Shown here: positions 12,068-55,001 of the stretch, one piece after another
Layout: the number at the start of each line of letters is the position of its first letter
How positions within the stretch are numbered: position 1 is the stretch's first letter
Source of the DNA: Pseudonocardia endophytica
GTDB lineage: Bacteria > Actinomycetota > Actinomycetes > Mycobacteriales > Pseudonocardiaceae
DNA: 64,000 bases
Direction of reading: 5' to 3'
NCBI RefSeq assembly: GCF_004339565.1
Contig: NZ_SMFZ01000002.1
Location: 1-64,000, forward strand
Made by a program: the position numbers and the translations under genes
Notes under the pieces: model-generated
Database searches by the model: none
What the model was told of the DNA's origin: nothing
The model's input: the letters and a program-made list of their open reading frames with translations, nothing else

Positions 12068-12206
12068 GGTCGACCCGCTGAGATCGGCCCGCGGAAACGT
12101 TCCACTCGACCGACGGTTCAGATCGAGAGGAACGTTCGCGCGGTCGTCTGCGCGGAAACGTTCCACTCGATCCGCGCAGACCGTCGGCCGGTACGTTCGC
12201 GCGGTC
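12060..12206. repeat. two tandem 61-bp palindromic units downstream of nuclease A
   Basis: The 20-mer CGCGGAAACGTTCCACTCGA occurs at 12090-12109 and 12151-12170, exactly 61 bp apart. Unit 1 has a complementary right arm, TCGAGAGGAACGTTCGCGCG (12123-12142; 17 of 20 bases pair), and unit 2 a more diverged one at 12190-12206. Unit 2 ends on the stop codon of the leftward nuclease gene. A 14-bp tandem duplication (12060-12073, 12074-12087) marks the paaR side. Confidence 0.9.
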
Positions 12207-13119
12207 ACCAGGCGGACCGGTCCCGGCGGAACGCGAGCGCGTGGCGGACGCGGTCGGCGACGACGTCGGGCCGGCCGAGAACCTCGAAGTCCGGTGGACG
12301 CAGGACCGTCCAGCCCCTGGAGTCGACGTACGACTGGCGTTCGAGGTCGTAGCGCGCCTGCTCAGCCGTCCGATGGTGCTCGCCGTCGTACTCGATGGCC
12401 AGCATCGCCGCGGGATAGGCCAGGTCGAGGCGGTAGCGACCGAGCTCGAACTGCAGCTCGGGAGCGGGCAGTCCGCCGTCGAGAAGAGCCAGCCGGATCC
12501 GCGTCTCCATCGGGGACTCGGCGCGGACGTCGGCGAGCGCGATCAGACCGGGGAGCCGGTCGAGCCCACGCACGCCGGGGTGGCGAGTCGCGAGCCCGAG
12601 CACCTCGGCCGGGTCGACGCCACACTGACATCCGAGGGCGTCGAGCGCGATGACCGCCTCGATCCGCGGCTCGCGTCGAGCCAGGTCGAAGGCCGTCCGC
12701 AGCGGCGAGGTGGTGTCGACCGTCCGTCCGGGCAGCACCCGCCATCGTCCCCGACGGTCGCGGACGCGTATCGGGACGTCGTGCAGGATCTCGTCGTCGA
12801 GGACGGTGTCGCGGTGCGCGACCAGCCCGGCGCGGTCGCGACGCTTCCGGCCGTCCGTCGTGACGAGCTCGACCGGGGCACGCGCCGGCGCGCAGTCCGC
12901 CCCCAGGATCTCGGACGCGGCGTACCCCGCGAGTGCTCCGTGCCCGCGGACGGCGAGGAACCCGGCCTCGCAGCGCGTCGTGAACGTGTCCGGTGCGTCG
13001 GCGGCGACGTGGATGCCGCGGAACGGCGAGCGGTACCGGGGTCCGCGCAGCTCGGCCGGGGTGACCGCGCCCGCCGCGATCGCCTCGGCTCCGACGAAGG
13101 GTCGTCCTGTCGTGGTCAT
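12205..13119 (-). CDS. AbiEi-like/DUF559 (Vsr-fold) endonuclease-like protein A
   Basis: The 304-residue protein has an N-terminal region ([20 protein letters not shown], then [10 protein letters not shown]) typical of actinobacterial AbiEi-like/DUF559 proteins, and a C-terminal DUF559 PD-(D/E)XK nuclease-like domain ([35 protein letters not shown], ending [12 protein letters not shown]). The Asp and Glu-x-Asp residues fit the metal site. It may cut DNA; no biochemical role is established for the family. It splits the paa locus and is framed by 61-bp palindromes. The start at 13119 follows AAGGG; an alternative ATG at 13164 would add 15 residues. Confidence 0.82.
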
Positions 13120-13194: not shown

Positions 13195-13390
13195 CGCGAA
13201 CGTTCCTCCCGACGGCGCCGCGGAATCGAGTGGAACGTTTCCGCGGGGGCAACCGCCCGAACGTTCCTCCCGACGGCGTGCCGGGATCGGGAGGAACGTT
13301 TCCGGGGGACGGAGCGCGCGAACGTACCTCTCGATCGCGGACCCGGGTCGGGAGGAACGATTCCGCGGGGTCGAGCGGCCTCGAGCGGTC
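13195..13390. repeat. three tandem 61-bp palindromic units upstream of nuclease A
   Basis: Units start at 13197, 13258 and 13319, an exact 61-bp period. Left arms read CGAACGTTCCTCCCGACGGC in units 1 and 2 and a variant in unit 3. Right arms are at 13226-13245, 13287-13305 and 13348-13367. The unit 1 right arm is the exact 20-base reverse complement of the left arms downstream of the gene, so the two arrays face each other across the nuclease gene. Tandem 10-mers TCGAGCGGYC (13371-13390) close the paaA side. The arrays fill most of the 340 bp between the nuclease and paaA starts. Confidence 0.92.
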
Positions 13391-33607: not shown

Positions 33608-35479
33608 TCAGCCCGCGGCGACCGGGTCGGCGTGGTCGGCCGCGTCCGCCCCGGAGTCCGGAGCGTCGTCCAGCGAGGACGACTCGTGCGACGCGGTCGT
33701 CTCGGCGGGCTCGGTGGCGACCGGCTCGTGCGACGTGGGCTCGTCCCGGAACCCGCCGTCGTCGTCGGAGTCCTTCACCGTCGTCGCGACGGTCTCCTTC
33801 GGCGCCTCGGTGTGCGCGAACGGATCCTCGTCGTCGGTGTCGCGCGGCTCGGGCACCGTGACCTTCCCGTCCGTGGGCACGGTCGTCGGGACCATCGGGT
33901 CGGTCGGCTCCGTCGTCGGAACCGTCGGGTCGGTCGGCTCGGCCGGGCTCTCCGTCTTGCCGAAGATGTCGCCGGGCTCGCCCATCTCGTCCACCGGCGG
34001 GTCGACGAGGATCTCGGTCCCCGGCGCGAACGGGCCGGTGTTGCCCGGCTCGTCGACGATCGTGCCGTCGTCCTCGCCGATGTTCGGCTGGTTCAGGTCC
34101 TCCGGCTCCTCCGGCGTGCGGGGTCCCGGGTACATGAGGTCGTTCTCGTCGAGCAGCCACGGGTTGATCGCGCCGTCGACCGGGTCGCCGTCCTCGTCCA
34201 CCGGCTCGCCGGTACGCGGGTCGTAGCCCACGACGTCCTCGGGCTTCGGCGGCAGGTACACCGGCGGCTGCGGGACCTGGTAGCCGTTCTGGTCGTACTG
34301 GATCGGACGGCCGGTGGAGGCGTCGTAGTTCGGGCGCTGGTAGGGGTTCTCGACGCCGTCGACGACGTGGCCGAACGGGTCGAGCGGCTCGCCGGTCTTC
34401 TCGTCGTAGCGGTACACGCCGTCCGGCTTCTCGGTGTCGACGTTGAACACGTAGGGCTGGCCCTGACCGTCGTAGTAGATCGGCAGGCCGGTGTCCTCGT
34501 CGTACATCGGGCGCTGGGCGACCACGTGACCGGCCGGGTCGACGCCCTCGCGGTCGGACAGGTTCGTGGTGAACGTGTGGTCGCCGTGCGGGTTGTCCAC
34601 GCCCTCGACGACCTTGCCGTGCTCGTCCACCGGCTCACCGGTGTACGGGTCGTAGCCGGCGACGCCGTCCGGCAGCGTCGGCGTGTAGCCGAGGTCGACG
34701 GCCGGGTACGGGTTGCCGTGCTCGTCGTACTCGAGCGGGAAGCCGGTCTCCGGGTCGAAGTTCGGGAGACCCTCGTGCTCGGGCTCCGGCCGGTCCTCGG
34801 GTCGCCAGTTCGGGTTCACGGCGCCCTCGACGGGCACGCCGTACTCGTCGAGCGGCTGCCCGGTGATCGGGTCGTAGCCGTCCACCCCGGGCGGGTTCTC
34901 CACGTGGACGTTCGGGACGAGCGGGTTGCCGTGGTCGTCGTAGGTGATCGGCAGGCCGGTCTCGGAGTCGTACTGCGGCCGCAGGTGCGGGTTGTCCGCC
35001 CCGCTGACCGGCTCGCCGTGCTCGTCGACCGGCACGCCGGTGTAGGGGTCGAACCCCGCCACGCCCTCCGGGAGGACGACGCCGATCAGGTTGACCATGC
35101 CGACGCCGTTCTCGTCGTAGTGGATCGGCTGGCCGTTGTGCGTGTCGTAGAGCGGGCGCTGGGCGATGACGTGCCCGGCCGGGTCCACGCCGCCGCGGTC
35201 CTCGAGGCGGGTGGTGAACGTGTGCTGGCCGAACGGGTTGTGCTCGCCGTAGACGGGGTGGCCGTGCTCGTCGAGCGGCTTGCCGGTGTACGGGTCGTAT
35301 CCGGTGACGCCCTCCGGTAGCTCCGGCGGGTCGACCAGGACGATCGGCGAGTACGGGTTGCCGTGCGTGTCGTACTCGATCGGGAGCCCGGTGTGCGGGT
35401 CGAAGTTGAACGGCTTCGGTGTGGGGAAGCAGCCCCCGGGAAGGAACGGGGCGGGCTGGGTCATCGGCAACTGGGACAT
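33608..35479 (-). CDS. acidic tandem-repeat protein (YD/TG/NP repeats)
   Basis: The 623-residue protein is unlike any family recognised here. Residues about 20-470 contain six double repeats of roughly 70 residues: a YD..TG.PI.YD.HGNP half and a GYDPYTG.P.DE.G.PV.G..NP half. Repeats 1 and 4 share an insert (HTFTT.L.DR.GVDPAGHV.AQRP), so the array is two copies of a three-repeat block. The last 150 residues are disordered and rich in Thr, Pro, Glu and Asp. No signal peptide or membrane segment is seen. Asp-rich turns might bind calcium (inference). GAGG precedes the ATG. Confidence 0.85.
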   Translation of the reverse strand: MSQLPMTQPAPFLPGGCFPTPKPFNFDPHTGLPIEYDTHGNPYSPIVLVDPPELPEGVTGYDPYTGKPLDEHGHPVYGEHNPFGQHTFTTRLEDRGGVDPAGHVIAQRPLYDTHNGQPIHYDENGVGMVNLIGVVLPEGVAGFDPYTGVPVDEHGEPVSGADNPHLRPQYDSETGLPITYDDHGNPLVPNVHVENPPGVDGYDPITGQPLDEYGVPVEGAVNPNWRPEDRPEPEHEGLPNFDPETGFPLEYDEHGNPYPAVDLGYTPTLPDGVAGYDPYTGEPVDEHGKVVEGVDNPHGDHTFTTNLSDREGVDPAGHVVAQRPMYDEDTGLPIYYDGQGQPYVFNVDTEKPDGVYRYDEKTGEPLDPFGHVVDGVENPYQRPNYDASTGRPIQYDQNGYQVPQPPVYLPPKPEDVVGYDPRTGEPVDEDGDPVDGAINPWLLDENDLMYPGPRTPEEPEDLNQPNIGEDDGTIVDEPGNTGPFAPGTEILVDPPVDEMGEPGDIFGKTESPAEPTDPTVPTTEPTDPMVPTTVPTDGKVTVPEPRDTDDEDPFAHTEAPKETVATTVKDSDDDGGFRDEPTSHEPVATEPAETTASHESSSLDDAPDSGADAADHADPVAAG

Positions 35480-35792
35480 CGGGGGCCTCGGCTCTCGGCT
35501 CTGCTCGGCGGGGTCGCTGCGGTGCTGGAGACGAGAATGCGACCCGGCCGCCCCGAGTACATGAGTAAAGCGCTACTCAACCGACCGTCACGGACTACCC
35601 ACAGCGGCCCCCCGAACGTCAAGGCTGCCCCTTGTGATCGGGCTGCCGGCAGTCCGGACGGACACATCTGTCCGCCCCGGCTACCGAGGACCCGATCATG
35701 GGCCCGATCATGGGCCGCGGGCGTCGATCACGCCTGCGAACGTCGACACCGTTCGGCGCCGTACGGTGCTCCCGTACCGGCACCGTCGGAGG
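35480..35792. other. intergenic region between repeat protein and nuclease B
   Basis: Positions 35480-35633 should hold the leftward promoter of the repeat-protein gene; no clear hexamers were found. The left palindrome of nuclease B covers 35634-35714. A short inverted repeat, GTACGG...CCGTAC (around 35761-35777), precedes the nuclease start. Confidence 0.5.
35634..35714. repeat. left palindromic repeat flanking nuclease B
   Basis: An imperfect hairpin runs from GATCGGG (35636) to CCCGATC (35697), with inner arms CGGACA (35659-35664) and TGTCCG (35669-35674). It aligns along its length with the right repeat at 36650-36721, sharing GTGATCGG, CGGCAGT, GGACA, TCTGTCCGCC and ACCCGATCA. A tandem 12-mer CCCGATCATGGG (35691-35702, 35703-35714) closes it. 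Confidence 0.88.
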
Positions 35793-36656
35793 GTGCGCCT
35801 CGAGAACGTGCTCGCCCGCCAGCACGGCGTGGTCTCCCGGAGCCAGGCCGTGGGGTGCGGGCTCTCGGTCCGGACGGTCCGGCGCCGCGTGCTCACCGGC
35901 CGGTGGAGGGAACCGCTGCCCGGTGTCTACCTCGTGGACGGCCACACCTTCGACGACACGGCCCGCGTGTGGGCGGCGGCCCTGTGGGCGGGCCGGGACG
36001 GAGTCGTCAGCGGACCGGCGGCGGCGTACTGGTCCGGCCTCCTGGACCGGGCCCCGCCGGTCGTCACGATCACGTTGCCGCGCAGCACGACCCGGCCGTC
36101 ACGTGATCTGGTCCGGGTGCGTCGCCGGAACCTCGATCCGATCGACCGGACCGTCCGTCGCGGGGTCGCCGTCACGGCCGTCCCGCTGACCGTCCTGGAG
36201 ACGGCGGCCGTGCTGCCGGACGGCGAGACGTTCCTGGACCGCGTTCTCCAACGACGGAAGGTGACGTTCGCGCAGCTCCACGCGGCCTACTGCCGTGCGG
36301 AGGGAGCCCGGGGCATGGGTCGAGCCGGCGAGCTGCTCGTCGCCGCGGGGGTCGGGGTGGACTCGACCCTGGAACGCCGCCTCGTGGCGCTGCTGCGCCG
36401 GGCCGGGCTGGACGGTTTCGTGCCGCGGTACCCGTTCGGCGACACCCGGGTCGATCTCGCGTTCCCCGACGAGCGGGTGGCCGTCGAGATCGACAGCTGG
36501 GCGTGGCACACCGATCCGGCCCGGTTCGCGGCGGACCGGGACAAGGGCAATGCGCTCGCGCTGGCCGGATGGACCGTCCTGCGCTTCACGTGGCGGGACA
36601 TCACCCGGCGCCCGGAGCGGGTCGTCGCCCGCATCCGGGCCGCGCTCCACCGGTGA
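35793..36656 (+). CDS. AbiEi/DUF559-type endonuclease-like protein B
   Basis: The 287-residue protein has an AbiEi-type winged-helix N terminus (LARQHGVVSRSQAVGCGLSVRTVRRRVLTGRWREPLPGVYLV), a middle domain with the family motifs VSGPAAAYWSGLL and AVTAVPLTVLETA, and a C-terminal DUF559 nuclease-like domain (STLERRLVALLRRAGL, DTRVDLAFPDERVAVEIDSWAWH, WTVLRFTWRDI). Asp and Glu-x-Asp of the PD-(D/E)XK site are kept. The start is uncertain: GGAGG touches the GTG at 35793, and GTG at 35766 is an alternative. Its stop codon lies inside the right palindrome. Confidence 0.8.
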   Translation: MRLENVLARQHGVVSRSQAVGCGLSVRTVRRRVLTGRWREPLPGVYLVDGHTFDDTARVWAAALWAGRDGVVSGPAAAYWSGLLDRAPPVVTITLPRSTTRPSRDLVRVRRRNLDPIDRTVRRGVAVTAVPLTVLETAAVLPDGETFLDRVLQRRKVTFAQLHAAYCRAEGARGMGRAGELLVAAGVGVDSTLERRLVALLRRAGLDGFVPRYPFGDTRVDLAFPDERVAVEIDSWAWHTDPARFAADRDKGNALALAGWTVLRFTWRDITRRPERVVARIRAALHR

Positions 36657-36721
36657 TCGGCTCCTCGGCAGTGCGGAAGGACAACTCTGTCCGCCTGCAC
36701 TGCCCGGAACCCGATCACCGG
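36650..36721. repeat. right palindromic repeat flanking nuclease B
   Basis: The outer arms CCGGTGATCGG (36650-36660) and CCGATCACCGG (36711-36721) are perfectly complementary. Inside are GGCAGTGC/GCACTGCC and GGACA/TGTCC, giving a 72-base hairpin. The nuclease B stop codon (TGA, 36654-36656) is part of the left outer arm. Confidence 0.92.
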
Positions 36722-36737
36722 ACGGTGGGCGGGCTGC

Positions 36738-37142
36738 TCAGCCCTGGACGGCCGACGGGTCCATCCAGACGAACTCCCAGCGGTGGCCGTCCGGGTCGTC
36801 GATGCTGCGGCCGTACATGAACCCGTGGTCCTGGGTGTCCCCGCCGACCGTCCCGCCGGCGCCGAGCGCGGCGTCGGCCAGGCGGTCCACCTCGTCGCGG
36901 GCCTCCACGCCGAGGGCGATGATCGTCTCGGTGGTCGTGTGCGCGTCGGCGATCTCCTTCTTCGTGAAGTCGGCGAACCGGGGCCGGCTCAGCAGCATGA
37001 TCACGATGGACTCGTTGACGACCATCGACGCCGTGTTCTCGTCGGAGAACTGGGCGTTCGGCGTGAAGCCGAGCGCGGCGTAGAAATCGCGGGAGCGGTC
37101 GACGTCGGCGACCGGCAGGTTCGGGAAGATCATGTTGACCAT
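36738..37142 (-). CDS. VOC-family (glyoxalase-like) protein
   Basis: The 134-residue protein has the paired beta-alpha-beta motifs of vicinal oxygen chelate proteins: MIFPNLPVADVDRSRDFYAALGF, SMVVNESIVIMLL, and SIDDPDGHRWEFVWMDPSA. The Glu in WEF fits a metal ligand. The closest pattern is the PhnB/lactoylglutathione-lyase-like group without assigned substrate. Confidence 0.88.
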   Translation of the reverse strand: MVNMIFPNLPVADVDRSRDFYAALGFTPNAQFSDENTASMVVNESIVIMLLSRPRFADFTKKEIADAHTTTETIIALGVEARDEVDRLADAALGAGGTVGGDTQDHGFMYGRSIDDPDGHRWEFVWMDPSAVQG

Positions 37143-54951: not shown

Positions 54952-55001
54952 ATATCCGGAACCTTGTTCCGCTCACGCTAGCGGAACAAGGTTCCGGATA
55001 T
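54952..55001. promoter_or_regulatory. double palindromic operator and/or terminator
   Basis: Two 22-base arms, 54952-54973 and 54980-55001, form a perfect inverted repeat with a 6-base centre. Each arm also contains its own palindrome: CGGAACCTTGTTCCG (54957-54971) and CGGAACAAGGTTCCG (54982-54996). This looks like twin TetR-type operators upstream of the aldo/keto reductase; the whole could also terminate the acyl-CoA oxidase transcript. Confidence 0.75.

Follow-up and report, generated by a model that had tools for sequence, protein, structure and literature searches.

A nuclease gene framed by long palindromes in Pseudonocardia endophytica, with related palindromes dispersed between genes, may belong to a new class of selfish bacterial element

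A predicted nuclease gene of Pseudonocardia endophytica is framed by two long palindromes, and it appears to be one member of a larger system that looks like a previously unnoticed kind of self-spreading DNA. The gene lies in the window (the whole stretch of 64,000 nucleotides that was analysed), with which contig 2 of the 7.57-Mb genome begins. Judging from sequence, the system combines framing of the gene, one palindrome subfamily per gene in this genome, intergenic dispersal of the palindromes, replacement of the cassette at one site in another genus, predicted DNA-binding and nuclease domains, and conserved active-site residues. The features of the window locus are:

35635-35698, no strand: left palindrome, subfamily D, 64 nt
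35793-36656, plus strand: gene for an AbiEi-type winged helix and EDxHD/DUF559 nuclease; probable start from paralogue starts, stop TGA at 36654-36656
35796-35936, plus strand: AbiEi_4 match, predicted winged-helix DNA-binding part (Pfam; structure match 6y8q)
36372-36647, plus strand: MTES_1575 match, the predicted nuclease domain, with a nearly identical DUF559 match (Pfam, structure, invariant residues)
36654-36717, no strand: right palindrome, subfamily D, 64 nt; perfect outer pairing reaches 36650-36721; contains the stop codon

A first-pass annotation had described a homologous hairpin pair flanking a nuclease gene here, and the observation is real: the two palindromes (TGATCGG...CCGATCA) are 74% identical, gap-free, over 65 nt. 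The right copy has outer arms with perfect 11-bp pairing (CCGGTGATCGG at 36650-36660 with CCGATCACCGG at 36711-36721) and the nuclease stop codon inside the arm, as that annotation had also described; both can be read directly in the sequence. The stop codon is the first TGA of this palindrome. Neither palindrome was matched in folding by any of 200 dinucleotide shuffles (z -3.7/-5.3 on the plus/minus strand for the left copy and -7.6/-7.0 for the right). The GC-rich sequence of the window has many stable folds, and listing every one of them did not discriminate; just one palindrome in the window scores 18 or higher, and it lies elsewhere, at 54952-55001, with two perfect 22-nt arms and a 6-nt loop. 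Terminator and structured-RNA readings were rejected because 35400-36900 of the window holds no terminator-like site (GC-rich hairpin with a T-run) and the one Rfam match in 35500-36850 is weak (E 0.67; 19.1 bits, where the gathering score is 90).

For the protein encoded by this gene, AbiEi_4, MTES_1575 and DUF559 all score above their Pfam cut-offs. The longest open reading frame opens at GTG 35634, inside the left palindrome. Close paralogues (L002-L004, below) align only from residue 49-55 of this frame, and hence the left palindrome is probably upstream of the gene, the true start being probably GTG 35793 or 35808. In an AlphaFold2 model (mean pLDDT 92.4), the first ~188 residues resemble the AbiEi antitoxin 6y8q (Z 9.7, rmsd 5.0 over 181), while the last ~95 resemble both the DUF559-like protein 3hrl (Z 10.1, rmsd 2.3 over 89) and the homing endonuclease I-Bth0305I (3r3p; Z 10.0, rmsd 2.2 over 93). 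The very-short-patch-repair endonuclease Vsr (1cw0) matches a longer stretch of the model (Z 8.3, rmsd 4.2 over 116), and TnsA (1t0f, 1f1z) is a middling match at Z 5.4 and 5.3. A profile search also matches I-Bth0305I (E 1e-5), and Foldseek agrees; no HUH or tyrosine transposase is among the family and structure matches listed (Pfam, NCBIfam, PDB sequences, Foldseek). Residues E196, D223, E234, D236 and H241 (numbering of window:35787-36653) are invariant in 56 aligned sequences. The AbiEi models of a defence library match the protein too. Its window neighbours are a 623-aa repeat protein and a glyoxalase, with no known defence gene and no nucleotidyltransferase (AbiEii) match among the two, and the locus is not an AbiE toxin-antitoxin pair. 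The gene for the 623-aa protein (33608-35479, minus strand), which is made up of internal repeats, adjoins the cassette.

A protein search of the same genome gave 14 matches, including four further close paralogues: L002, L003, L004 and the frameshifted L006/L007, which is in three pieces. All five paralogous loci (5/5) are framed on both sides by TGATC...GATCA palindromes of a single subfamily, and the five subfamilies are different: A at L002, B at L006/L007, C at L004, D at the window gene and E at L003. The stop codon is the palindrome's first TGA in four of the five genes and lies ~10 nt outside it in L004. Across 84 loci from this and other genomes, 38 stops read TGATC, compared with 142 of the 902 long stop-to-stop frames found there. 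A palindrome of subfamily A also occurs at a distant homologue (L005, G000:C1:2624934-2625905; 35% identity), whose matched stretch contains one TGA; it lies close to the 5' end of this homologue and not at the stop.

The window holds a second, distant DUF559 gene (12208-13119, minus strand; MTES_1575 match below the cut-off), bordered by palindromic stretches based on GAACGTTCC (12089-12204 and 13199-13335), which are presumably the 61-bp family of the first-pass annotation. That annotation had called the palindromes studied here unrelated, with no evident similarity to the 61-bp family. By eye they do differ from the GAACGTTCC-based ones, but their TGATCGG ends are common to three of the four sister subfamilies and the fourth (E) has at least TGATC ends; the sister subfamilies differ inside.

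We collected palindromes with a script (59-66 nt, ends [TA]GATC...GATC[AT], symmetric pairing of at least 0.6 or a palindrome score of at least 8) from loci fetched for a protein, pattern or model match in the P. endophytica genome, and clustered them by their inner parts. At least 162 were kept (A 81, C 38, B 18, D 11, E 7, and 7 outside), at least 155 of them in the five subfamilies. The pattern TGATCGG N35-65 CCGATCA occurs at 101 places in this genome; elsewhere it occurs 1-19 times in 24 genomes of the genus and 1-15 times in 16 others of the order. Since most of the matches listed from other genera do not look palindromic inside, several chance matches per genome are taken as background. 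A covariance model of subfamily D, built from four copies including both of those in the window, matched 11 genomic places at E <= 1.2e-5, with the next match at 0.02. Seven of these 11 are not in the model, and the hairpins are thus more than chance. Two of the places are at the window gene; the other nine are solitary, and a distance of 1.5 kb around them yielded no nuclease relative. One D-like copy (C2:882080) appears in the clustering only, and one model match (C2:3471023) in the search only. The first-pass annotation had named two outcomes as refuting it, hairpins confined to this locus or common intergenic terminators unrelated to DUF559 genes, and neither was found: the hairpins also occur elsewhere, they do not look like terminators, and the same sequence also stands upstream of the gene.

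With genes called by a home-made codon-usage gene finder (overlap of up to 20 nt allowed), 151 of the 155 subfamily copies are intergenic, though 81.5% of the same loci is coding. Only 11 of the 151 intergenic copies lie between divergent genes, against 29 of the 127 intergenic regions over 60 nt in these loci, and several D copies are at most 40 nt from a gene end. Many are arrayed: 100 of the 155 fall into 33 clusters, each of two to ten copies less than 200 nt apart, and 23 of 49 spacings between A copies are 81-93 nt. One array (L169, G000:C2:3281134-3282187) consists of nine A palindromes and one C palindrome, with spacings that alternate between ~82 and ~128 nt over much of its length.

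Conservation drops within about three bases outside the palindrome. The aligned copies end in TGATC/GATCA, followed in the flank mostly by T/C and then G/C, with no GTAG. Across 28 offset/length combinations examined for target-site duplication, one gave a z of 3.5 and the rest -1.7 to 2.5, which we read as no consistent duplication. Conservation in subfamily A (75 distinct copies, 62 nt) is seen in the outer arms, at a GG/CC pair and in the centre. Pairing at its variable symmetric positions shows no excess (0.392 vs 0.411 shuffled), and we therefore think that sequence blocks are kept, not pairing. Pairing in A is nevertheless higher at symmetric positions than at positions offset by one or two (0.19-0.32), an excess that symmetric column composition alone would give. 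Pairing in B, D and E is not clearly above shuffles (0.451/0.462, 0.462/0.434 and 0.473/0.470), while C shows an excess (0.590 vs 0.546, reached by 0 of 300 shuffles); pairing may matter there, or C perhaps mixes subtypes. A folded hairpin as the conserved feature thus finds no support from covariation in A, B, D and E, and partial support in C. The pattern seems to fit a symmetric protein site better than a folded strand, with the invariant blocks outside the reach of the test.

One genome scan yielded 123 relatives, with 80 loci kept; Pseudonocardia, Rhodococcus, Gordonia and Hoyosella are among the genera represented. With a threshold of E <= 1e-20, 56 of 296 sampled genomes of the class (P. 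endophytica included) contain a relative. No phage record of them was found, and of 13 plasmid records one covers at least 80%. Within the 80 fetched loci, palindromes of score 10 or more occur at 1.01/kb near the gene and 0.41/kb elsewhere. From the end of the left palindrome to the first matched codon downstream is at most ~100 bp in many loci, and the gene's flanks are common to many genome pairs. Nine relatives of the window locus (L107-L115) have a dehydroquinase-like gene (by eye) adjoining a glyoxalase gene, without the nuclease or repeat-protein gene; at only 75-78% identity, the empty-site junction is unreadable in these nine. The nearest relatives of the window locus (L105 and L106, 80%) have other genes upstream.

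Left and right flanks align above a mixed-locus null at its 99% point in 39 of 83 loci and at its 95% point in 60, and in 33 of those 39 the aligned stretches begin 947-1046 nt apart. This null includes related loci; a rank test on 73 non-redundant loci (from 82 usable of 84, own paralogues included) is the better test. There, the best partner of the left flank is its own right flank in 40/73 loci after correction (39 before), compared with 8/73 for a control window 200-300 nt further downstream. The own pair is not ranked first in 33/73 loci, and is eleventh or worse in 15/73. The first-pass annotation had expected paired hairpins always framing this gene, plus solitary ones elsewhere: the nine solitary D copies agree with it, but with a locus-specific pair in 40/73 loci, "always" is too strong. 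Its interpretation is supported in the main, though not in full. Similar nucleases also carry similar palindromes (rho 0.374, against a highest value of 0.116 in 300 permutations) in 51 loci that were chosen for a good left-right palindrome match, a correlation that descent alone could give. At 0.28-0.35, the Mantel rho with the palindrome is similar for all four protein parts and singles out none of them; here, too, shared descent would be enough.

Dispersal can also be seen in other genomes. The pattern TGATCAC N40-60 GTGATCA, searched in nine genomes, has 29 matches in Pseudonocardia parietis, 25 of them 62-63 nt long, and 8 in P. hydrocarbonoxydans, six of which are 62 nt long with at least one of these at a nuclease gene; the other seven genomes have 1-10 matches each. 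By eye, P. parietis (L271, genome G098) has at least two more dispersed 62-63-nt families with TGATCAC ends. In Rhodococcus sp. SMB37, two palindrome types, searched by exact pattern, occur only as a pair at their gene, with no solitary copies; one further pattern match is non-palindromic inside.

One Rhodococcus site, present in 18 genomes, shows replacement of the cassette. A full-length nuclease gene is found in 14 of these (nine in one orientation, five in the other), a remnant in one (L238), and none in three, where another gene occupies the site; no clean single-palindrome, gene-free allele was found in the 18. The 800-nt downstream flanks of L231 and L232 are 97.9% identical, yet their nuclease genes are only 69.4% identical and point in opposite directions. 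The same holds for L234 and L235 (99.0% and 68.8%), while the nuclease genes of L231 and L235 are 97.3% identical. In a 14-kb comparison, one allele is a palindrome-gene-palindrome block of 1015-1016 nt with flanks 92-99% identical, and the other allele, of 1552-1562 nt, has an inverted cassette, framed by different palindromes, in addition to ~540 nt of other sequence. In L254-L256, which have this alternative allele, the extra ~540 nt beside the inverted cassette holds an open frame of up to 163 codons with a signal-peptide-like start by eye. The right break in L253 is the outer end of the right palindrome, and the left break falls 9 nt before the left palindrome, within the last codons of the upstream gene. 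These sharp block ends near the palindromes indicate that the cassette changes as a unit. Replacement could have occurred by homologous recombination through the flanks, although to have divergent cassettes at a single site in both orientations, repeated insertions or inversions would be required as well.

We give about even odds to the explanation that we favour, in which palindrome, nuclease gene and palindrome form one unit whose product acts as a dimer, recognising and cutting the duplex palindrome, with homing-like copying of the cassette. The dimer would recognise its own ~62-66-bp palindrome as double-stranded DNA, with the AbiEi winged helices on the outer arms and the EDxHD nuclease domains toward the centre. 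It would cut the cognate palindrome, or a site allele without the cassette, and repair would copy the cassette or the palindrome into the break, so that the cassette homes and solitary palindromes build up between genes. As for the solitary copies, either recombination between the framing palindromes or faulty repair may have produced them. We infer binding, cutting, copying and the origin of the solitary copies. I-Bth0305I dimerises on a target of nearly 60 bp, according to a review (PMC3943268), and AbiEi is described as binding an inverted repeat whose 11-bp outer arms are separated by 27 bp (PMC3985639). A dimer of a protein that fuses an AbiEi-type with an EDxHD-type domain would be expected to recognise a palindrome roughly as long as those observed, and this is why we favour duplex recognition, cutting and copying repair.

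Support for the duplex model comes from the framing of 5/5 paralogues by five different subfamilies, the stop codon at the palindrome's first TGA in 4/5, the 11 D copies, the intergenic position of 151/155 copies, the 40/73 against 8/73 loci in the rank test, the lack of covariation in A, the matches to I-Bth0305I and AbiEi, and the Rhodococcus replacement. Against the model stand the lack of a clean single-palindrome allele at the Rhodococcus site, of a consistent target-site duplication and of solitary copies in SMB37, as do the excess pairing in C, the 33/73 loci where the own pair is not first, and the possibility that the replacement was ordinary recombination. A nuclease that cut its flanking palindromes would also cut its own locus unless restrained. 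More tentatively, and at somewhat less than even odds, the whole could be a selfish bacterial element of a new class. An AbiEi-EDxHD nuclease would then recognise ~62-66-bp duplex palindromes, keep two of them as the ends of a ~1-kb cassette, home in either orientation and, in some genomes, seed considerably more than a hundred palindromes, solitary or in arrays, with a private palindrome for each nuclease lineage.

Several other explanations deserve consideration. The palindromes might be operators through which the AbiEi-type domain represses its own gene, the solitary copies being spread regulator sites. AbiEi is indeed described as repressing its own promoter via an inverted repeat (PMC3985639), and the left palindrome often ends within ~100 bp of the first matched codon. 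However, the second palindrome is at the stop codon, away from the promoter, copies occur in arrays of up to ten, few (11/151 vs 29/127) lie between divergent genes, where promoters lie, and the invariant nuclease residues would be left without a role; we regard this explanation as unlikely. We see still less chance that the system is REPtron-like by convergence, with a protein acting on a folded single-stranded hairpin and the palindromes as miniature transposons. The layout of a palindrome-bordered gene with dispersed extragenic copies is that described for REPtrons (PMC8266576, PMC3733652), and predicted folding is strong, with some covariation in subfamily C. Against this, A, B, D and E have no clear excess pairing, the nuclease matches Vsr and EDxHD enzymes with no HUH or tyrosine transposase among the matches listed, and target-site duplication is not consistent.

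A domesticated host or defence function, in which the palindromes mark the chromosome or are cut on incoming DNA, strikes us as similarly improbable. It would suit the defence-library AbiEi matches, the conserved blocks with variable spacers, and the flanks common to many genome pairs, from which it follows that the gene can stay long at one site. The window neighbours are nevertheless a repeat protein and a glyoxalase rather than a known defence gene, and cassette replacement in two orientations at one site is more like a selfish element. Finally, ordinary intergenic terminators or chance palindromes in high-GC DNA are already disfavoured, and we give them hardly any credence. Several D copies do lie within 40 nt of a gene end and stable folds are common here, but the locus has no terminator-like site and the same sequence upstream of its gene, related copies number 11 at E <= 1.2e-5, subfamilies are matched to paralogues, and palindromes are more than twice as dense near the gene as elsewhere in the 80 loci.

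If the duplex homing explanation is true, it amounts to an independent invention of a dispersed-palindrome system, with an unrelated nuclease, in actinobacteria, and to a nuclease-driven counterpart of the REP/RAYT systems. In the accounts of PMC3733652 and PMC8266576, dispersed palindromes with a dedicated enzyme have one enzyme type, the tyrosine (HUH) transposases, with one REP class lacking a known enzyme; the word "actinobacteria" is absent from PMC3733652. Among the titles listed from the open-licence literature, none reports palindrome-framed DUF559 genes. The explanation would give a role to part of a large predicted-nuclease family, with relatives in 56 of the 296 sampled genomes of the class. 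It would also supply many natural enzyme-target pairs for the evolution of ~60-bp site recognition, offer new long-target nucleases, and make the spread of dispersed palindromes testable with duplex DNA and a single protein.

The cassette resembles several known systems in part. With Vsr it shares a related nuclease fold; Vsr is without the AbiEi part, and palindrome framing is not known for it. Like the AbiEi antitoxin of the AbiE type IV toxin-antitoxin system, the protein has an N-terminal winged helix and a following domain, and AbiEi also binds a long inverted repeat (PMC3985639). Unlike in AbiE, no AbiEii toxin adjoins the window gene, a nuclease domain is fused, and repeats occur on both sides and elsewhere. 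With the EDxHD homing endonuclease I-Bth0305I it shares the nuclease fold and conserved acidic and histidine residues, and the palindromes are about as long as the target of near 60 bp given for that enzyme (PMC3943268). In contrast to I-Bth0305I, the DNA-binding part is AbiEi-like, no intron was seen and no phage relative found, and the gene, rather than interrupting a palindrome, has an intact one on each side.

The closest parallel in layout is with REP sequences and REPtrons (RAYT/TnpAREP), where a palindrome-bordered gene accompanies dispersed extragenic palindromes (PMC8266576; PMC3733652); intergenic dispersal, arrays and matched families of enzyme and palindrome are likewise common to both. 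REPtrons, as described there, have a tyrosine (HUH) transposase and palindromes of 20-40 nt, one class of which is GTAG-tagged. Here the predicted enzyme is instead an EDxHD-type nuclease with an AbiEi winged helix, the palindromes are 62-64 nt long with TGATC ends in this genome, and the largest subfamily shows no covariation. With a different enzyme and without the tag, the cassette falls outside the REPtrons, even if its mode of action may be similar.
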